A DNA stretch of 32,912 nt from Nitrospira sp. (lineage in GTDB: Bacteria > Nitrospirota > Nitrospiria > Nitrospirales > Nitrospiraceae): the NCBI GenBank assembly GCA_029879905.1, contig JAOUPN010000009.1:1-32912 (forward strand), read 5' to 3'. This document shows, piece after piece, positions 22,639-32,912 of this stretch. The notes under the pieces are model-generated. The model was not told the DNA's origin. It saw only the letters and a list, made by a program, of their open reading frames with translations, and did no database searches. Numbering within the stretch: position 1 is the stretch's first letter; each line of letters begins with the position of its first letter. Both the position numbers and the translations under genes were made by a program.

Positions 22639-22715
22639 CCGACGATTTGTGGGTTTCCGTGCAGAGCGGTTGACCTCCCTTGTTTCTTTTACGGACTGAT
22701 CGGAAGGAGTGCGGA

Positions 22716-23732
22716 ATGGCCGTCCCCGTATCTCAGATGTATAGTGTCGCCAGCTATGTTCTCTCGAATAAGCTCAGAGGCGTTAAGCGGTATCCGTTGG
22801 TCCTGATGCTTGAACCGCTGTTCCGTTGTAATCTGGCTTGTGCTGGCTGTGGAAAAATTCAATATCCTGACCACATTCTTGATAAGCGGTTGACGCCGGA
22901 GCAATGCTGGGACGCAGCGGAGGAATGTGGTGCGCCGATCGTGGCCATCCCCGGCGGTGAGCCGCTGATCCATCCGGAAATCGGACGGATCGTTGAGGGG
23001 TTGGTGGCGCAGAAGCGGTATCTCTATGTCTGTACCAACGCGATTTTGATGGAGCGTAAACTCAAGGAGTTTACCCCGTCGCAGTACTTGACCTTTAGTG
23101 TGCATATGGACGGGCTGAAGAACGAACACGATTTGGCCGTGTGTCGAGACGGGGTGTACGAGGTCGCAGTGAGGGCGATCAAGGAGGCCTTGAAGTTGGG
23201 GCATCGTGTGACGACGAATACGACGCTCTTTGACGATGCGAATCCGGATCGGGTGCGGAAGTTTTTCGATGAGATGATGGCTCTCGGTGTCGAAGGTATG
23301 ATGATTTCGCCGGGCTATAGCTATCACAAAGCTCCTGACCAGCAACATTTTTTGAAGAAGTCTCGGACGAAAGAACTGTTTTCCAGGATACTCAGTAATC
23401 CAAAGGGGTCGTGGAAGTTCAATCAGTCCCCGTTGTTTTTGGATTTCTTAATGGGAAAGAGGGAATATCAGTGCACGCCATGGGGAAACCCGACCTATAA
23501 TGTCTTCGGCTGGCAGCGACCGTGTTATCTCCTGCAGGAAGGATATGCAAAAACCTTCCGCGAATTGCTGGATACCACCGAGTGGCAGGACTATGGAACA
23601 AGTAAGAATGAGAAATGTGCCGAATGTATGGTGCATTGTGGGTATGAAGCTTCGGCGGTAAGCGATACGTTCGGTACGGTGTCAGGCTTTGCACGCACGG
23701 CGAAGTTGACCATGCTGCCGACTTCCCGGTAG
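22716..23732 (+). CDS. hpnH: Adenosyl-hopene transferase HpnH (radical SAM)
   Basis: MAVPVSQMYSVASYVLSNKLRGVKRYPLVLMLEPLFRCNLACAGCGKIQYP with CxxxCxxC-type cluster motif, IPGGEPLIHPEI, C-terminal SPASM-like CxxCMVHCGYEAS. The ATG at 22716 has GGAAGGAG upstream. Confidence 0.93.
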   Translation: MAVPVSQMYSVASYVLSNKLRGVKRYPLVLMLEPLFRCNLACAGCGKIQYPDHILDKRLTPEQCWDAAEECGAPIVAIPGGEPLIHPEIGRIVEGLVAQKRYLYVCTNAILMERKLKEFTPSQYLTFSVHMDGLKNEHDLAVCRDGVYEVAVRAIKEALKLGHRVTTNTTLFDDANPDRVRKFFDEMMALGVEGMMISPGYSYHKAPDQQHFLKKSRTKELFSRILSNPKGSWKFNQSPLFLDFLMGKREYQCTPWGNPTYNVFGWQRPCYLLQEGYAKTFRELLDTTEWQDYGTSKNEKCAECMVHCGYEASAVSDTFGTVSGFARTAKLTMLPTSR

Positions 23733-23822
23733 TCACCTCATGCGCTATTTGTGGACTTTGGGGTGGGTGTAATTTCTATGGCGGTCTCATGTGCGGAGAC
23801 CGTGTGAAAGACGTTCACGATT

Positions 23823-24215
23823 ATGACGGACTCAACGGCTCAAGGTGCTGATCATACGGACTCACTCGAGGGACGGGTATTTAGACCGGCGTCTTCCGCT
23901 GAGCTGGAGGAAGCCGTCGACTTGGCCTTTGATTACCGAGGTGATGTGACCTTGGGGCTTGCCTCCGGTGAAGTCCTTGTCGGGTACCTCTTCAACCGGC
24001 ATGTGAAAGGCGAGTGTCCCTCCGTTGAGTTCTTTCCGGAGGACGAATCTGTGTCTCGAACCATTCCCTATTCGACGATAGCATCCATTGCCTTTACGGG
24101 CGAGGATACGGCGAATGGTAAGTCGTGGGAGGCATGGGTGTCCAAAAAAGAATCGGAGCGACGGGCCGAAGCACAGCGGGTAGAGGAGGACGCACGCAGT
24201 CGCGGATTGCTCTAG
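23823..24215 (+). CDS. Conserved hypothetical protein (130 aa, soluble)
   Basis: Intact ORF following hpnH, coding-like composition, no recognisable domain motif. Confidence 0.65.
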   Translation: MTDSTAQGADHTDSLEGRVFRPASSAELEEAVDLAFDYRGDVTLGLASGEVLVGYLFNRHVKGECPSVEFFPEDESVSRTIPYSTIASIAFTGEDTANGKSWEAWVSKKESERRAEAQRVEEDARSRGLL

Positions 24216-24376
24216 TTGTCTATGTGCATACATGCATTTCTTGCAATCGGTGGGTGGCCGGAATCTCTCTCGCCGTATGTGTTTGCCTATCGGTGCTCTT
24301 GCCTCTGAATGGGCCTGTCTCTTTCTCAATATCTCGCAAATTCAGTTCTCAGTATCATTGACAAAAACGGGGGGTT

Positions 24377-25003
24377 ATGCTACAAAACCCCGCCCAAAAT
24401 AAGGCGCTCGCCGTAGTGGGCGTGATGTTTGGGAGAATGTTCGAGTCTCTGGCGACCGGCAAGAATGTGGCTCAGTTTACAACGAGACAGATAGGTAGAA
24501 TCTGGCTGGCCACGAGTGCGTGCTGTGCGCTTTTGGGTGGTGTGCTTCCTTCGGAGGTGACGGCCACACATGAAGCCGATCACCGGTTTGCGGTTGAAGG
24601 GTACGTCTGTGGGGCTGACGGGAAGGCCGTCGCCAATGTCGATGTTCTCGTAAAAGATACGAAGATTCCGTCCGGACAGGTTGTTAGGACCGACAATTAC
24701 GGATATTACAAAGCGACGTTTCATCTCCATAATGAGAACCTCGGCGATCCGATTTTAGTGGAGGCCGAGGGGGAGCAGCAGCACCGTAAGGTCGAGTTTG
24801 ATCCAAAAGATCTTGAGTCAGAGCGGAAAATACGAGTGAGCTTTGGCACAGGTTGCGAAGCGGATGATCCTCCTCTGTGGCTTTGGGTCGGCATCGGGGT
24901 CGTAGTTGCGGGGGCCGGGGGGGTTGTCGGGATGAAGGTCATCCGTTCACAGCAAAAGCGTGAACGGGCAAAGGGAAAATCGCAGGGGAAAAGGAAGTCG
25001 TAA
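24377..25003 (+). CDS. Hypothetical secreted protein with carboxypeptidase-regulatory/Ig-like fold, C-terminal TM and basic tail
   Basis: VEGYVCGADGKAVANVDVLVKDTKIPSGQVVRTDNYGYYKATFHLHNENLGDPILVEAEG resembles a CarboxypepD_reg-like domain; LWLWVGIGVVVAGAGGVVGMKVI TM; KRERAKGKSQGKRKS tail. Start uncertain. Confidence 0.65.
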   Translation: MLQNPAQNKALAVVGVMFGRMFESLATGKNVAQFTTRQIGRIWLATSACCALLGGVLPSEVTATHEADHRFAVEGYVCGADGKAVANVDVLVKDTKIPSGQVVRTDNYGYYKATFHLHNENLGDPILVEAEGEQQHRKVEFDPKDLESERKIRVSFGTGCEADDPPLWLWVGIGVVVAGAGGVVGMKVIRSQQKRERAKGKSQGKRKS

Positions 25004-25216: not shown

Positions 25217-25741
25217 GTGAGATTCGAGTGGATGTCGGTTCGATCGATCGGCGTGACGGTTATCGGTCTTGTGTTGGGGAGCGGATGGTTGGCCGGCTGT
25301 GAGGGGCAGAATGAAGGGCCGATCGTGCCTCCGCCTCCAGCTCCTGCAGAATATGTCGATAAACATATGCCGGTAAAGTGGTGGGGGGATGTCGAGAAGC
25401 TGGAGGAGGGGCGCAAGCTCTATGACGGCGAGGCAAATCCCGATGTCAATTGCGCCAAGTGTCATGGGAAGGACGGGAAACCTGTAAAGGCGGGGGCGAC
25501 GGATTTCCGAAACCGCGAGCGCATGGAATTGTATTCCGACTCCGTCTGGTTCTGGCGTATTGCCGAAGGTGTGCCGAATACGAGAATGAAGGGCTGGAAG
25601 AGTAAGTTGTCAGAGGAAGATATCTGGAGGCTGGTGCTGTTTGAGCGCAGCTTTGCATTGAAGGGGAAAGCCTGGGATGCGGGGCAGAGGCAATGGGTTG
25701 CGATGGATGCTGTCGCTGTGACGGCGGGAGACGGCCGCTAG
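25217..25741 (+). CDS. Monoheme c-type cytochrome, putative lipoprotein
   Basis: Signal with GSGWLAGCEG lipobox-like Cys; heme motif CAKCH; GRKLYDGEANPDVNCAKCHGKDGKP. Confidence 0.85.
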   Translation: MRFEWMSVRSIGVTVIGLVLGSGWLAGCEGQNEGPIVPPPPAPAEYVDKHMPVKWWGDVEKLEEGRKLYDGEANPDVNCAKCHGKDGKPVKAGATDFRNRERMELYSDSVWFWRIAEGVPNTRMKGWKSKLSEEDIWRLVLFERSFALKGKAWDAGQRQWVAMDAVAVTAGDGR

Positions 25742-26015
25742 GCGTGGGGTTAACCGGATGGAGCGGGTTGCCGGGTGTTCCATCGGAAACCATGACGGAT
25801 TGCATGGGCATCCCAGTGTCGGGTGAGAGAGAAAATTCAGGGTTTACCTGGTAGCCAGGTGACCGATGATATGTGGTATTGTTCGGCACACGTTTGGGGA
25901 AGTGTTGTGCGTCGAATATTGTGAGGGGTAGAGATCGATCTCGCAAGAGTTCACTTCGGCAAGAGTCAATGGTGAGTCTTGGTTGAATCTTGGAAGAGTG
26001 GGGCGTTGAGGGACT

Positions 26016-27728
26016 ATGAATATACCGCCACGTAATCTTATAGGGGTGATGGCGTTTCTCGCACTGTGTGTGGCGGGCGTCTCCAGCGTCTATGCGCAGG
26101 CGCCCGGATCGCCTGCGGTGCAGTTTCCGTATACGGGCAACCGGACGGCGGTCTGGATTGTTGCTCAGCTGCACACATTATTGGGGGCGTTCATACTCGG
26201 GGCTCCTATTTTCGTCGTGATGGCGGAATGGTTGGGGTTCCGCAAGCAGGATCCACGGTATGATCGTATGGCGAAGGAGGTCACGAAGATCACGGTGATC
26301 CTCTTTAGTATGACCGCGCTGACCGGTGGGTTGTTCATTTTTGTCCTACTGGCCACTTATCCGCAATTTACGACCTGGTTTGTCAATCAGTTCTATATGG
26401 TATTTGCGGTGATTTATCCCCTCCTGTTCATCGTGGGAACCATTGTGTTGTATGCCTATTTCTACACATGGGATGCCTGGAAGGGAGAGAAGAAGGGGCG
26501 GCACATTGCTCTTGGCGTACTGCTCAATTTCCTCTGCATGGCCACAATGTTTGTGGTCAACGGCCCGACATCCTTTATGAACACACCGGTACAGGTCGAA
26601 GGGATCTCGGCTGCGGAGGCGCTTGCCGCGGCAAGTTTGTGGGACAAAATCGCCAACGTCAGTTGGATGCCGCTCAATCTCCATCGGATCGACGGGAACG
26701 TGGCCTTCGGCGGGTTTGTCGTGGGCCTGATTGCCGCCTACATGTATATGGGGGCAAAAAACTCCGAGGAGCGTGCGTATTACGATTGGATGGGGTTTGT
26801 CGGTAACTTGATTGCCGTGGGCGCGATGCTCCTTCAACCGTTTACCGGACTGTTGTTGGCCTATGAAATGTGCGACTACGACTTTTCGTTTTGCCCCTAC
26901 ATGATGGCTGATCAGCTCTCGATGTTTTTCGAGATGCAGGGTGCGGTCATCGGGGTGATGTTCTTGGGATGCAACTATTATGTCTGGCTCAATCTGCGTC
27001 GCATCGAAGGGATTGAGAACGTCAGGATGACCATATTGGCTCCGATCGTGATGGTGTTGTCTCCGGTGGTCATGGTCGCCGTGTTTACGGAGTACTGGAT
27101 CCCTGAGCCGATGTCTCTGGCCTTCCTTGTGCCGTTTGTGTTGAGCCCCTTTATCTTTGGGCGATTTATTCCCCTGACGGTTTCCGTGGAAACCATCATG
27201 AAGGTCACCTTCTTGATGGTCGTGGTGAGTACCGCAATCTGGGTTATTCCAAACGGCTTTGCAGCCACGGAAGGCAGATTGACGGAAGAGTTGCAATTGC
27301 CCGAAGCGTGGGAAATTCTCGGAAAGATGCCGACCAAACTTGGGGCAATTTTCTCATTGGTGTTTGTGACCGTGGTGAATTACGTCCTCTACGGGAGGGT
27401 CATACGCCAAGGGACGATTGTTTGGGGGAAGATCGACGGGGTGTCGCAATTTCTCCTCATTTTCCTGGCCTTCACCTCTATCTGGGCTATGGGGTTGATG
27501 GGCGCCGTTCGGTCGTTGTTGCGCAAGTTTTTCCATAGCTATAACTTGATTCCGGATTTTACGGCCGAATCATTCACGCCGACGCTCTCGTCCTCAGCGT
27601 GGTTGATTACCGGAATCGCACTGGTCTTTTTCGTGATTGTCAGCGCGGCGATTTTTATTGCCCTCCGGTCCGTGGTATTGAAAGAACGCGAGCCGGAAGG
27701 AGTGCCTGTCCACGCCGGAAACAAGTAA
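26016..27728 (+). CDS. Cytochrome bd-like oxidase subunit I homologue (paralogue A)
   Basis: Multi-TM 570 aa; NRTAVWIVAQLHTLLGAFILGAPIFVVMAEWLG (N-terminal heme-ligand-type His), NLHRIDGNVAFGGFVVGLIAAY (second His). No GRQPW quinol-loop motif seen. Confidence 0.8.
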   Translation: MNIPPRNLIGVMAFLALCVAGVSSVYAQAPGSPAVQFPYTGNRTAVWIVAQLHTLLGAFILGAPIFVVMAEWLGFRKQDPRYDRMAKEVTKITVILFSMTALTGGLFIFVLLATYPQFTTWFVNQFYMVFAVIYPLLFIVGTIVLYAYFYTWDAWKGEKKGRHIALGVLLNFLCMATMFVVNGPTSFMNTPVQVEGISAAEALAAASLWDKIANVSWMPLNLHRIDGNVAFGGFVVGLIAAYMYMGAKNSEERAYYDWMGFVGNLIAVGAMLLQPFTGLLLAYEMCDYDFSFCPYMMADQLSMFFEMQGAVIGVMFLGCNYYVWLNLRRIEGIENVRMTILAPIVMVLSPVVMVAVFTEYWIPEPMSLAFLVPFVLSPFIFGRFIPLTVSVETIMKVTFLMVVVSTAIWVIPNGFAATEGRLTEELQLPEAWEILGKMPTKLGAIFSLVFVTVVNYVLYGRVIRQGTIVWGKIDGVSQFLLIFLAFTSIWAMGLMGAVRSLLRKFFHSYNLIPDFTAESFTPTLSSSAWLITGIALVFFVIVSAAIFIALRSVVLKEREPEGVPVHAGNK

Positions 27729-27797
27729 GAGTCGGCCCGGTCGGGGTCATTCATTTGTGCGCATCCGGTGCCGTGTCGGCACAACAGAGGAGTTGTT

Positions 27798-28613
27798 ATG
27801 GGGAAAGTGATTGTCAAAGTCCTCATCGGCCTTGTGGCCGCTGCCGGCTTCTGGTTCACATCGATGGCGATGGGATTCCCGCCGGTTTTCCAGACGATGT
27901 TCATCGTGTTCGCCTTGACCGGCACCTTCGTATTTCTCTTGTTGGATGTTCCGCATACCACTCCCCCGAGTGGCGTGGTCGGATTGATTTCCGTCATCGG
28001 GTTTTTTTGCCTCGTCGGTTTGGGCTACGGAGCAGCCGCATCTCTCTGGCCGCAGTTTGAAACCGGAGACGAGCAGGAGAAGATTGCCAAGGTACTTAAC
28101 GGGAAAGAGAATCCGCTTGATCCGTGGAACGCCGAGGAAATTACCAATCGAATTAAAGAACTTGATGAGAAGGGAAAGGCTCTCGCCGAGCGCATGAAAA
28201 ATTTGGGCGGCGATCAATCTGCCGTCGCAGCAGCAGCCGCAGTCGCCAGTGTTGCGCCTGCTACCGGCGGTGGAGGCGAGGGCGGCGGCGGAGATATTAT
28301 GAAGCTCGGCGAGGAGCAATGGCAGCTGCAGGAATGCTACAACTGCCATAAAATTCGGGGTGAGGGGGGCAAGAAGCGCGGTCCAGAACTGGATAATATC
28401 GGATCGCTCCTGACGATGGAGGAGATCAAGCTCAAGATTCTCGACCCCAAGAGCTTTATGGCTGAAGGATTTGAGAAGGAGTGGGAAAAGGGCCGGATGC
28501 CCGACAAGTTTAAGGACGTGATGAGCGACTCGGAAGTCGTCGCCTTGGCCACATGGCTCTCAGAATTCAAGAATACGTCTGTTGCCACTCCGAAGCCGAT
28601 TAAGAAGAAGTGA
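27798..28613 (+). CDS. Membrane-anchored monoheme cytochrome c
   Basis: N-terminal TM segments, Ala/Gly-rich linker (AVAAAAAVASVAPATGGGGEGGGGD), heme motif CYNCH, distal Met region GRMPDKF. The ATG at 27798 is preferred over the ORF-track start. Confidence 0.85.
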   Translation: MGKVIVKVLIGLVAAAGFWFTSMAMGFPPVFQTMFIVFALTGTFVFLLLDVPHTTPPSGVVGLISVIGFFCLVGLGYGAAASLWPQFETGDEQEKIAKVLNGKENPLDPWNAEEITNRIKELDEKGKALAERMKNLGGDQSAVAAAAAVASVAPATGGGGEGGGGDIMKLGEEQWQLQECYNCHKIRGEGGKKRGPELDNIGSLLTMEEIKLKILDPKSFMAEGFEKEWEKGRMPDKFKDVMSDSEVVALATWLSEFKNTSVATPKPIKKK

Positions 28614-29548
28614 TGTTGCAACCGAAGTTGAAATCAAAGGTCCGTTGTACCGATTGCGATATCGGTGAAGTGTCGAAAGTCATCCTTGATCCGCTGTCCC
28701 ATGAGATCAGCCACATTGTGGTGTCCATGAATGGAAGCGGTGAGCGCCAAGTCATGATGGCGATGGTGCAAGAGGTGGCAGTCGATCTCGTCTCCTTGCA
28801 TGTCCCCTCTGCCGAGATTGTCGCGTTGCCTCCCTTCAAGCGCGACGATTATGTCACGACCCATGAGGTGGAAATTTCGCATCTTGAAGACCGTCTCGAC
28901 GTGGTCCCTGGTGAAATCCTTGTCCCCTTCCCCGACCTTGAAAAAGACGTCAAGCGTCGGACGTTCTTCATGAATTTTACCCATGTGATCGGCTTTCTGA
29001 TCGGTCTACCCATCGCCTATCCGATTTTGCGGTTCATCATGAAGCCCATGTATGCTCCGTTTGACAACGGCTGGATTCAGGTGGGGAATGTCTCCAAGAT
29101 CAAGCAAGATGATGTGGGGACACAATTCCAGTATAACAAGAAGGTCAAGGAAGCCTACATGCCGGAGGCTGATGTCGAAAAATCTGTCTGGATCCTCAAG
29201 GCGAGCTCCGAGGTGCTGGAAAAATTTTACGAGGATAAGGATCAAGATTTTCATGACGCGTCGGGAAAAGTTATTTGGACGAACAAAAAGGAATTCCCCT
29301 ATATTGCCTTTTCCGGAAAGTGCCCCCATTTAGGTTGTGCGTTTAAATGGCGCAAGCATAAGACCTTAGGGCAAGTGTTTCTTTGTCCCTGTCATCTGAG
29401 TATTTATGATGCAACGGGGAAAATACTCGATGGGCCGGCGCCCCGCGCGCTTGATGCGTTGCCGATCAGAGTCTCAGCGAGCGGGGAAGTCGAAATTATT
29501 GATATGGAATTTAAGGCCGGCATTAAGAATCAAATCCGGATCATTTAA
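28613..29548 (+). CDS. Rieske [2Fe-2S] protein with N-terminal PRC-barrel-like extension
   Basis: CPHLGC and CPCHLSIYD Rieske ligand motifs, one TM (FTHVIGFLIGLPIAYPILRF), and about 115 aa upstream beginning KVRCTDCDIGEVSKVILDPLSHEISHIVV. Confidence 0.85.
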   Translation: MLQPKLKSKVRCTDCDIGEVSKVILDPLSHEISHIVVSMNGSGERQVMMAMVQEVAVDLVSLHVPSAEIVALPPFKRDDYVTTHEVEISHLEDRLDVVPGEILVPFPDLEKDVKRRTFFMNFTHVIGFLIGLPIAYPILRFIMKPMYAPFDNGWIQVGNVSKIKQDDVGTQFQYNKKVKEAYMPEADVEKSVWILKASSEVLEKFYEDKDQDFHDASGKVIWTNKKEFPYIAFSGKCPHLGCAFKWRKHKTLGQVFLCPCHLSIYDATGKILDGPAPRALDALPIRVSASGEVEIIDMEFKAGIKNQIRII

Positions 29549-30661
29549 ATGCAACAGCCGACTGTTTCAAACGAGCCGTCAACTACGATCGAGAAGATCG
29601 TCGACTTTCTGGATGCCCGCGTTGGCCTGAAAGAAATCCAGGCCAAGATGCTGAACGAGCCGATCCCGGGAGGATCCCGGTGGGCCTATGTGTTCGGCTC
29701 GATCCTCCTCTTTATTTTCGGCATGCAGGCCCTGACCGGCATCTTGCTCATGTTCTACTATGTGCCGACGGCGGACCATGCTTACGCGAGCACGCAATAC
29801 ATTATTCATGATGTCGATTACGGGTGGTTTTTGCTGGGATATCACTTTTGGGGATCCAGCGCGATGGTGGTCTGCGTCATCGCCCACATGTCCCAGGTGT
29901 TTCTCTGGGGAGCCTACAAGCCGCCCCGTGAGTTGCTGTGGCTGGTTGGGCTCGCGCTCTTTGGGATTGTCATTGGTTTTGGATTTACGGGGTATTTGTT
30001 GCCTTGGGATCAGCGGGCCTATTGGGCCACGACCGTGGGCGTGGAAATGGTGGATAAGGTGCCGCTGTTCGGCGACTTTCTGGCCCGGTTTCTCAAGGGT
30101 GGGCCGACTCCCGGCCAAATGACGCTGAGTCGATTCTTCGTGATCCATGTAATGATTCTTCCCGCTGCTCTGATGGCCCTCGCGGGGTTGCATCTCTTCC
30201 TGTTTCGTGTCGCCGCACCGGCCGGACCGTTTCAGGGAACACCGGAGGAGATCAAGGCCAAGACCGACTACTTTTTCCCACGGCAAATTTGGAAGGACAT
30301 GGTGGGAATGGCCGCCGTCTTTCTTACGATCTGTGGCCTGGCCTTCTGGGAGCCGGTAGTGCTACTGGAGGAGGCCACCCCTGATCCCGGAGAGTATCAT
30401 CCGGAGCCCGAGTGGTACTTTCTCTTTTATTTCCAGTTGCTGCGGCTCAAGATGTTTGCAGGAGAGTTCGGGCAGTTTATGGGGGCCGTCGCATTGCCTG
30501 TGTTGTTCATGGCTCTGCTTGTTGCGCTTCCATTTTTCGATAAGGACCCTGAGCGGAATATTTTTAAACGGCCGGTGGCGTTGATCAGCTGGATTTTTAT
30601 CATGGCGGTCATCGCCATATTTACCGTCTCTTCCGTCATTAACCGAGAATTCCTGGATTAA
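29549..30661 (+). CDS. Cytochrome b (bc1/b6f type)
   Basis: GYHFWGSSAMVVCVIAHMSQVFLWGAYKPPRELLW, GFTGYLLPWDQRAYWATTVG, FFVIHVMILPAALMALAGLHLF, PEWYF: cytochrome b His-ligand and Qo motifs. Confidence 0.95.
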   Translation: MQQPTVSNEPSTTIEKIVDFLDARVGLKEIQAKMLNEPIPGGSRWAYVFGSILLFIFGMQALTGILLMFYYVPTADHAYASTQYIIHDVDYGWFLLGYHFWGSSAMVVCVIAHMSQVFLWGAYKPPRELLWLVGLALFGIVIGFGFTGYLLPWDQRAYWATTVGVEMVDKVPLFGDFLARFLKGGPTPGQMTLSRFFVIHVMILPAALMALAGLHLFLFRVAAPAGPFQGTPEEIKAKTDYFFPRQIWKDMVGMAAVFLTICGLAFWEPVVLLEEATPDPGEYHPEPEWYFLFYFQLLRLKMFAGEFGQFMGAVALPVLFMALLVALPFFDKDPERNIFKRPVALISWIFIMAVIAIFTVSSVINREFLD

Positions 30662-30692
30662 GGCCGGACCCACGACGCCGGAATGATTGCAC

Positions 30693-31703
30693 ATGGCTAA
30701 CGAACGCGATTCCATGTCACCCACGATGATAGGCCTTGGAGTGTTATGGCCGACATGTTGGACGGGTCTGCCGATTAAGCTGGCATTCGCCGTACTCGCG
30801 TTTGCGCTCGGATGGCTGGAGTTGGAGGGGAGGATCGGTCTGGCATTCCTCATGTTGTTAGGCAGCCCCTTCACAATTTTTGGCGTTCCTCTTATTGCTG
30901 TTGGTCTCGAAGGTCATTTCGGCGAAGGGATCGGGCTGCCTCTTTTATTTCTTTTGGCTATCCCCATCGACATCTGGGCATTTGGCATAGTTGCGAGGAC
31001 CTATTTTCTTGAACGGTTTAGGAAAGAGCCGCCTGAAGGTCTAGGTTTCAAACTCTGGTGGAAATCGGCCGTGGTCGGTGCGTTCTTTTTGCCGGCGTTA
31101 TGGTTTGTGGTGAGTCTTGTCACCGAGGTTGCTGTCTCAACTTCTCATTCGCTCTCCCAAATGGAGAGCTTGAGGCTTGTGTTCAACACGGGACTCCCAA
31201 TTGCGGAGAGGATCGGCCTTGAAGTCACGATTTGGGGGACGGTCTCCTTTATGGTTTTAGCCGTACTGTTGACCGTTGGGATCTCTTGGATCGGGCGAAT
31301 CATTCGTGACATTGCCAATGTTGCGCCTCCGTTGTCGGATAATTACCAAGCCTTGATCACCCGCTGGGACCTGATGCGTGTGCCAAGCGACCAGGCGATG
31401 TTTATGACTGCGATAACGGGCACGGGTGTCGTCCTCGCCCTTCTGTTTTGGGCCGTACTCCCTGTTACGACACCGCATCCTCATGAATGCTGTGCACAAG
31501 AGCAAGTCAAAGCAGAGCCTCCCTTCAAACCGATTGACGTCTTGTCCCAAAATGAAGAGGAAATTGCGAAACTTGAGGCGTTGGTTCTTGCGGTAGAACA
31601 GAGCAAGGAACCTGGAAAAACCGCAACGGAAAATGGTAAAGGAAAGGGCGGAGGAAAGGTTAAGAGCCAAAAGACCGAAGGTTCACCGGCCGTCACGGAA
31701 TAG
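30693..31703 (+). CDS. Membrane protein of unknown function in the respiratory cluster
   Basis: Several TM segments, then PHPHECCAQEQ and a charged Lys/Gly-rich tail. Closely spaced between cytochrome b and bd-like paralogue B. ATG at 30693 (MANERDS) is the likely start. Confidence 0.7.
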   Translation: MANERDSMSPTMIGLGVLWPTCWTGLPIKLAFAVLAFALGWLELEGRIGLAFLMLLGSPFTIFGVPLIAVGLEGHFGEGIGLPLLFLLAIPIDIWAFGIVARTYFLERFRKEPPEGLGFKLWWKSAVVGAFFLPALWFVVSLVTEVAVSTSHSLSQMESLRLVFNTGLPIAERIGLEVTIWGTVSFMVLAVLLTVGISWIGRIIRDIANVAPPLSDNYQALITRWDLMRVPSDQAMFMTAITGTGVVLALLFWAVLPVTTPHPHECCAQEQVKAEPPFKPIDVLSQNEEEIAKLEALVLAVEQSKEPGKTATENGKGKGGGKVKSQKTEGSPAVTE

Positions 31704-31722
31704 TAACTTGCGAGGTGAAGAG

Positions 31723-32912
31723 GTGAGTGTCATACGACAGGGGGTTGGAACGATTCGACAAGCTCTTCGGGCCGATCAGGGGCAAGTGAGGTGGTTGACG
31801 GGGTTCTTGCTCATGGCAGGGATGCTGGCTCTGCCCTCACTGGGTATTGCGGGGGAGGGAACCGCAGCCGGGCCAACGGAGTATCGTGATATTCCGTATA
31901 TCGGCAGTCGGAATCTTGTCTGGATTGTCGCTCAATTGCATCTTCTCCTTGCGGGATTTGTGTTGGGAGTGCCTATTTTTGCGTGGTTGTGTGAGGTCAT
32001 TGCGTGGAGAGGCGGTGAGCCTCGCTACGAAAAACTTGCCAAGGAGTTCACCAAGCTTCTTACGTCAGCCTATGCGACTACCGCACTGTTCGGTGGCATT
32101 CTGTTGTTTTTATTAGTGGCGTTTTATCCCAAGCTGATGAATTATTTGACGGATATCTTCTTCCCGTCATTTCTCCTCTATTGCCTGCTGTTCCTGTTTG
32201 AGACTGCAACGCTCTATCTCTATTGGTATGGCTGGGACGCCATGCAAGGTGGACGTAAGAAAACCCTGCACGTCTTTCTGGGCTTCCTCCTCAATTTCTT
32301 TGCGTTATTTATTATGATCGTGCCCAATGCGTGGGCAACATTTCAATCAAGTCCGGTGGTGATTTCCGACGGAACAGCGTTCGAACGTGCATGGGCTGCG
32401 ACCTGGAATCCCACATGGTGGCCGATCAACATCCATCGATTGATCGCGAACGTCGTTCTCGGTGGGTATATCTGTGGCGCCTATGCGGGAGTGCGGTACC
32501 TGTCGGCCAAATACAAAGAAGACCGGGAACATTATGATTGGATGGGGTATGTCGGTAACTTTATCGGCGTGTTCGGTCTCCTGGCGTTGCCCTTTGCCGG
32601 TTACTGGTTGATGCGGGAAATCTATCAGTATAACCAACAGATGGGCATCACGCTCATGGGAGGTTTTCTGTCCTGGCTTTTCATTATTCAGGCCATGCTG
32701 ATCGGAGTCTTGTTCCTCGGGTCAAACTATTATTTCTGGTTGGGGATTACCTATCGGATCCCAGGATCGGAAACGCAATATCGCAAACCGATGCTGTGGA
32801 TGCTGGTCAGTCTATTACTGTGTCTTGCCGTTTGGATGACCCCGCACTCCCTGGTTGCTAGTGTGGAAGAAGCGCAGAAAATGGGAGGTGCGCACCATCC
32901 GCTCCTTGGCGT
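31723..32912 (+). CDS. Cytochrome bd-like oxidase subunit I homologue (paralogue B), partial, runs off right edge
   Basis: Open frame from GTG 31723 to window end, absent from ORF track because it has no in-window stop. SRNLVWIVAQLHLLLAGFVLGVPIF, NIHRLIANVVLGGYICGAY, HYDWMGYVGNFIGVFG are collinear with paralogue A. Confidence 0.85.
   Translation, partial: MSVIRQGVGTIRQALRADQGQVRWLTGFLLMAGMLALPSLGIAGEGTAAGPTEYRDIPYIGSRNLVWIVAQLHLLLAGFVLGVPIFAWLCEVIAWRGGEPRYEKLAKEFTKLLTSAYATTALFGGILLFLLVAFYPKLMNYLTDIFFPSFLLYCLLFLFETATLYLYWYGWDAMQGGRKKTLHVFLGFLLNFFALFIMIVPNAWATFQSSPVVISDGTAFERAWAATWNPTWWPINIHRLIANVVLGGYICGAYAGVRYLSAKYKEDREHYDWMGYVGNFIGVFGLLALPFAGYWLMREIYQYNQQMGITLMGGFLSWLFIIQAMLIGVLFLGSNYYFWLGITYRIPGSETQYRKPMLWMLVSLLLCLAVWMTPHSLVASVEEAQKMGGAHHPLLG

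Follow-up and report, generated by a model that had tools for sequence, protein, structure and literature searches.

A complex III gene cluster with two bd-like proteins in Nitrospira sp.: conservation, apparent separability of the bd-like proteins and fusions with cytochrome c

Overview

The gene cluster at the right end of the window (the whole stretch of 32,912 nucleotides analysed here) probably encodes a complex III coupled with an O2 reductase of the cytochrome bd family that oxidises cytochrome c and would receive electrons derived from nitrite. The original prediction had set this cluster apart from canonical bc1 and bd operons; the arrangement is real but already known, since it is the CIII_1/bd-like_1/bd-like_2/alt_nxrC_1 region published for N. 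moscoviensis (PMC6606698), here in another genome. What is new is that in some relatives the second bd-like protein (bd-like B) is fused with a cytochrome c, mostly next to a pair of antiporter-like genes, as well as the apparent dissociation of bd-like A and bd-like B among relatives, and the presence of the full cluster in genomes without NxrA. The terminal oxidase of Nitrospira is still unproven, and most Nitrospira are devoid of a canonical haem-copper oxidase; the natural variants described below (bd-like A and complex III without bd-like B, bd-like B without a match of bd-like A grade, the bd-like B–cytochrome c fusion, and the cluster without NxrA) lead to specific co-purification predictions.

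Gene content and layout of the locus

Open reading frames and Pfam matches bear out the seven genes named in the original prediction, all on the + strand and in the order cytochrome c (cytc1), bd-like A, anchored cytochrome c (cytc2), Rieske protein, cytochrome b, a membrane protein termed UNK and bd-like B (Table 1). Because cytc2 and the Rieske gene overlap by 4 bp, the Rieske and cytochrome b genes abut, and the gaps further on are short, the genes look like a single operon, except that about 275 bp separate cytc1 from bd-like A. Its limits cannot be read from the promoter scan, which is at chance level (6 found vs. 5.3 expected), nor from the terminator scan, which is weak (14 found vs. 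9.7 expected). The most likely start of UNK is an ATG, while bd-like B probably starts at the GTG given in Table 1 rather than at 31633. The three genes lying upstream (22680..25003) are neighbours conserved in synteny, and any functional link of theirs to the cluster would be hypothetical.

Table 1. Features of the cluster and its upstream neighbours (positions in the window).
Feature	Positions	Strand	Evidence
Radical SAM/DUF3463 protein, conserved upstream neighbour	22680..23732	+	PF11946 2.7e-61, PF04055; synteny
Small conserved upstream protein	23823..24215	+	synteny
Exported conserved protein, weak carboxypeptidase-regulatory-like match	24377..25003	+	PF13620 9.1e-4, under curated cut-off; synteny
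cytc1, monohaem c-type cytochrome, probable lipoprotein	25217..25741	+	PF13442 2.1e-8 (also PF00034); one CxxCH
bd-like A (bd-like_1 type), membrane protein of the cytochrome bd superfamily	26016..27728	+	PF01654 1.3e-20; 5doq_A 1.1e-9; synteny
cytc2, membrane-anchored monohaem cytochrome c	27768..28613	+	PF00034 3.4e-8; CxxCH invariant
Rieske [2Fe-2S] protein, long N-terminal extension	28610..29548	+	PF00355 5.1e-9
Cytochrome b, unsplit, full-length, b6-like	29549..30661	+	PF00033 1.5e-47, PF00032 1.1e-8; best NCBIfam match cytochrome b6
UNK, multi-TM membrane protein of the cluster (most likely start ATG 30693)	30693..31703	+	conserved in synteny
bd-like B (bd-like_2/NIDE0901 type), probable start GTG 31723, cut by contig end, rest on C46 (L108)	31723..32912	+	PF01654 5.4e-19

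The window is an entire contig (C352), and the assembly breaks off at its right edge, inside bd-like B. Contig C46 of the same genome (6373 bp) overlaps this end and completes the locus: residues 343–426 of bd-like B are identical in the window and in C46 (84/84), but the DNA overlap is not base-for-base exact, so that C46 stems from the same strain or from one very close to it. The extension to the right that the original prediction had called for thus supplies, in order, the rest of bd-like B, two cytochromes c (cytc3 and cytc4), a protein of 275 aa that is EB_dh/NxrC-like (its orthologue matches EB_dh PF09459, a domain of NxrC-like proteins) and a dihaem cytochrome c, after which comes a gene for a membrane protein, encoded on the other strand. 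A canonical bd operon past the window edge, the arrangement from which the original prediction had set the locus apart, is rejected, because no CydB is encoded on C46 and PF02322 has no match in the whole genome.

Complex III genes

The Rieske protein carries both of its cluster-binding motifs (C238/H240/C243 and C259/C261/H262), which are invariant in 36/36 sequences. In cytochrome b, the His pairs H99/H113 and H200/H215 (haems bL/bH) are invariant, the PEWY Qo motif is present in 36/36 sequences, and 13 and 14 residues lie between the His of the two pairs; unsplit chain, His spacing of 13/14 and PEWY together form what we take to be a b6f-like pattern. Judged by these ligand motifs, the two genes probably belong to a complex III, with a putative quinol:cytochrome c oxidoreductase activity. 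The likeness to complex III of the bc1/b6f type thus lies in both Rieske ligand motifs, the four-His cytochrome b and PEWY, whereas no classical cytochrome c1 or f was found, bd-like A and UNK are embedded in the cluster, and the Rieske protein has a long N-terminal extension. As to the c-type cytochromes, Cys28 of cytc1 is invariant (36/36 sequences) and its gene adjoins bd-like A in 37 of 38 bd-like A loci, the remaining locus being cut off at that point, while cytc2 has N-terminal TM segments, with about three hydrophobic segments in its orthologues.

The N-terminal region of the Rieske protein (28610–29270), roughly 220 residues ahead of the Rieske domain, has no Pfam match over the cut-off. 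Likewise, UNK has no match in Pfam or NCBIfam, and no relative in the PDB, whether by sequence or by fold. Just its last TM segment and tail were found in family f4, and a much shorter protein replaces it in families f8 and f9.

Homology, residues and fold of the bd-like proteins

In both bd-like proteins, the PF01654 match is limited to N-terminal positions 3–240 or 242 of 418. Neither of them shows the homology, Q-loop part included, of a canonical CydA, and the pair differs from a canonical CydAB in that no CydB is encoded with it. The two proteins are homologous to each other across about 350 residues, and bd-like B is conserved, as best or paralogous match, in 59/59 relatives searched.

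For the haem sites, we assume as reference positions the residue numbers and roles of CydA (H19, E99, E107, W441/E445). According to alignments to E. coli CydA, the H19 equivalent is kept in all sequences of both proteins (38/38 for bd-like A, 36/36 for bd-like B), the E99 equivalent is lost in both, and the E107 equivalent is kept in 35/36 bd-like B and 34/39 bd-like A sequences. The last position (141 in bd-like A) is Gly in the window and in four relatives, which differ in this from the N. moscoviensis system. bd-like B also has an HH pair, a further His, in most sequences an HWH motif, and an invariant W-x3-E that resembles W441/E445, although this mapping is uncertain, the profile alignment setting the helix against an earlier CydA helix. 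bd-like A is devoid of the W, of the HH pair and of the first His of HWH. In the tree, a long branch leads to the bd-like A of the window clade.

A full-length bd-like B orthologue was modelled with AF2 (mean pLDDT 79.4); the ten structures that match this model best are all CydA chains of solved bd oxidases (best E 1.6e-8), with modest query-normalised TM-scores of 0.34–0.45. With a CydA-like fold, taken from this model, and an equivalent of the haem ligand H19, bd-like B has two features expected of an OR-N protein.

Conservation of the cluster and apparent separability of its bd-like proteins

The original prediction was right in implying that the DNA comes from the Nitrospirota, and the synteny in other members of the phylum, on which it had suggested a check, is extensive. 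The order bd-like A, cytc2, Rieske, cytochrome b, UNK and bd-like B recurs in 30 further Nitrospirales loci from three families and, with a shortened UNK, in three loci from two additional families within the class, which means that the arrangement is not due to chance. Wherever the fetched stretch extends far enough, cytc1 lies upstream of bd-like A, and the downstream series from cytc3 through cytc4 and EB_dh to the dihaem cytochrome c is likewise conserved.

In the phylogenetic tree, bd-like A, bd-like B, bd-like_3 and bd-like_4 form separate groups (support at the base of the bd-like A group: 94/97, some deep rows being long), and a second bd-like cluster of the window genome (contig C66) fits the published bd-like_3/bd-like_4 cluster. 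Family f4 (L043 and L095, from genomes G037 and G043) has kept the block from cytc1 through bd-like A, cytc2 and Rieske to cytochrome b without bd-like B there; its other bd-like protein is an orthologue of bd-like_3 (70% identity), and NxrA, COX1 and CydB have no match in the four f4 genomes searched (73–96% complete). Conversely, bd-like B orthologues are present in families f7, f10, f11 and f12, where no match to bd-like A exceeds the strength that bd-like B itself gives (paralogue-grade). Because of these two complementary distributions, bd-like A and bd-like B look separable, and another paralogue could replace the missing one.

Such a pattern is what one would expect if bd-like A were a stable subunit of complex III (bd-like–c–Rieske–b) and bd-like B an oxidase acting alone or with another paralogue, a possibility that we entertain tentatively. 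In addition to f4 and to the four families with bd-like B, it is favoured by the bd-like A of the window clade, which diverges in step with cytc2, cytochrome b and UNK, not with bd-like B. Yet the f4 orthologue of bd-like_3 could partner bd-like A, which is not tied to complex III everywhere, since it occurs in L090–L092 without Rieske and cytochrome b, though adjoining a cytochrome c. Moreover, the divergence, stronger in bd-like A, cytc2, cytochrome b and UNK than in bd-like B and the downstream genes, is only indicative, being shared by the radical SAM gene that lies upstream. A fuller version, in which bd-like A (with cytc1) would have been permanently built into a b6-like complex III, independently of O2 reduction, and bd-like B would be a separate cytochrome c oxidase module bearing, in some lineages, two ion-antiporter subunits as well as a cytochrome c fused to it, appears rather unlikely to us. 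That the block preceding bd-like B was replaced or recombined was also considered and set aside as weakly supported: the trees of the two blocks are largely congruent, and the radical SAM gene shares the longer split of the clade.

The same distributions weigh on another arrangement, in which bd-like A and bd-like B would form a heterodimeric CydAA' oxidase (OR-N1 + OR-N2) next to a separate, co-regulated complex III. Passages of PMC12342949 and PMC10839748, citing Murali 2021, assign a NIDE0901-like protein to OR-N2 and propose an OR-N1 + OR-N2 CydAA' oxidase using cytochrome c; the assignment of our two proteins to OR-N1 and OR-N2 rests on the NIDE0901 match in this literature, and the identity of bd-like B on synteny with the published description. 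Both systems feature CydA-like paralogues, cytochrome c as the proposed donor and no CydB, and the long homology between the two proteins, as well as a cluster common to nearly all Nitrospirales examined, would suit a heterodimer. In contrast to that proposal, however, the two proteins are separable in relatives, with a double dissociation between f4 on the one hand and f7, f10, f11 and f12 on the other, which leaves the heterodimer possible but doubtful. In the literature surveyed, we found no biochemical proof of O2 reduction for any OR-N enzyme.

Fusions of bd-like B with cytochrome c

In genome G021, bd-like B and cytc3 are a single ORF of 790 aa with PF01654 and PF00034 domains (L069:9519-11891). 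Two antiporter-like genes (PF00361) come next, the stretch from the fusion to this pair being L069:9519-15325, and behind them lie cytc4, an EB_dh match and a gene for a dihaem cytochrome c. bd-like B and cytc3 are fused likewise in G293, G188 (at two loci), G220, G227, G207 and G274, i.e., in seven genomes including G021, and the two antiporter-like genes adjoin the fusion everywhere except in G274, where the contig is short. Two of these genomes, G021 and G293, are from the family of the window and have the antiporter-like genes inside the complex III cluster (L069, L113 and L130), while the fusion and the antiporter-like genes are also found in clusters without bd-like A. In the family of the window, only 4 of 147 genomes are listed with a match above 45% identity to the first antiporter; in G282 and G298, the two besides G021 and G293, no bd-like B lies next to the antiporter in the stretch fetched. 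A similar association is TO_2 of Ca. Manganitrophaceae, a bd-like protein clustered with two MrpD-like subunits that was reported as restricted to Manganitrophaceae (PMC9040806); G021 and G293 resemble it in combining a bd-like protein with two antiporter-like genes, whereas MrpD-like genes are absent from the cluster in the window itself.

The seven genomes in which bd-like B and the neighbouring cytochrome c form one protein mark bd-like B as cytochrome c-linked, and the fusion is the strongest indication from sequence in this study that bd-like B may work with cytochrome c. As for other terminal oxidases, the window genome has no match to a complete haem-copper oxidase; it is a fragmented MAG, and a missing oxidase may exist. 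A COX1-like membrane protein of the same genome (L071:844-2379, contig C73) matches only positions 4–174 of PF00115.

These results bear on the view of the original prediction that the bd-like proteins are parts of a modified complex III. For bd-like A this may fit, as it stays with Rieske and cytochrome b in f4, whereas bd-like B, given its fusions, is better read as complex IV. That both proteins would be non-oxidase parts of such a complex is improbable: they do flank Rieske and cytochrome b in a tight cluster, they match only about the first 240 of the 418 PF01654 positions, and O2 reduction is putative, but bd-like B is fused to cytochrome c, with antiporter-like genes, in clusters that have no bd-like A, and the genome yielded no convincing terminal oxidase besides it. 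Our preference for a bd-family oxidase follows from the cytochrome c fusions, the residue motifs of bd-like B and the CydA-like model, together with the lack of CydB and of a complete haem-copper oxidase in the genome.

Proposed electron flow and comparison with N. moscoviensis

In N. moscoviensis, Mundinger et al. 2019 described CIII_1 with bd-like_1, bd-like_2 (putative complex IV) and alt_nxrC_1, the latter a protein of 30.5 kDa with one TM helix, separated from bd-like_2 by two cytochromes; the region is strongly transcribed and co-expressed, and a III–IV supercomplex with bd-like_2 in the role of terminal oxidase was proposed (PMC6606698). The locus studied here shares with it Rieske and cytochrome b, two bd-like proteins, several cytochromes c and, between bd-like_2 and an alternative NxrC of about 30 kDa with one TM helix, two cytochromes c; it differs in belonging to another species and in being split over two contigs.

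For a complex III coupled with a bd-family oxidase, we infer the activities, direction of electron flow, physical assembly and partners as follows. A first unit would be a quinol-cytochrome c oxidoreductase made of Rieske, the b6-like cytochrome b and the anchored cytochrome c, with cytc1 and bd-like A at its side; bd-like A may be one of its subunits or the second half of the oxidase. A second unit would be the cytochrome c-oxidising O2 reductase of the bd superfamily, consisting of bd-like B (likely the catalytic subunit), its own c-type cytochromes and the NxrC-like periplasmic protein. Electrons released by nitrite oxidoreductase would reach bd-like B, and finally O2, by way of c-type cytochromes, while some would be driven uphill from cytochrome c into the quinone pool via Rieske and cytochrome b; complex III would run forward when the donors are of low potential. 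The clustering of genes does not prove one complex, and what points to the physical association of the two units in a III–IV supercomplex, as proposed, is synteny and the published co-expression in N. moscoviensis.

Relation to nitrite oxidation

The window genome encodes an NxrA of 1145 aa, 83–87% identical to the NxrA of several relatives, the presence of which fits a nitrite oxidiser or a comammox organism. NxrA itself served as the marker of nitrite oxidoreductase, PF14711 having been dropped because it has no match even in this NxrA-carrying genome. The full cluster, however, also occurs in three genomes of f8 and f9 without any NxrA-grade match, so that it is not specific to nitrite oxidisers, let alone a hallmark of nitrite oxidation. 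The tie to a nitrite-oxidising metabolism made in the original prediction is therefore loose.

In two genomes from other families of the phylum (G164 and G221), a bd-like gene (L093:7438-9123 and L094:7600-9288) lies near an NxrA-like gene, the product of which shows 42–43% identity to the NxrA of the window genome; in their bd-like protein, Met replaces the H19-equivalent His.
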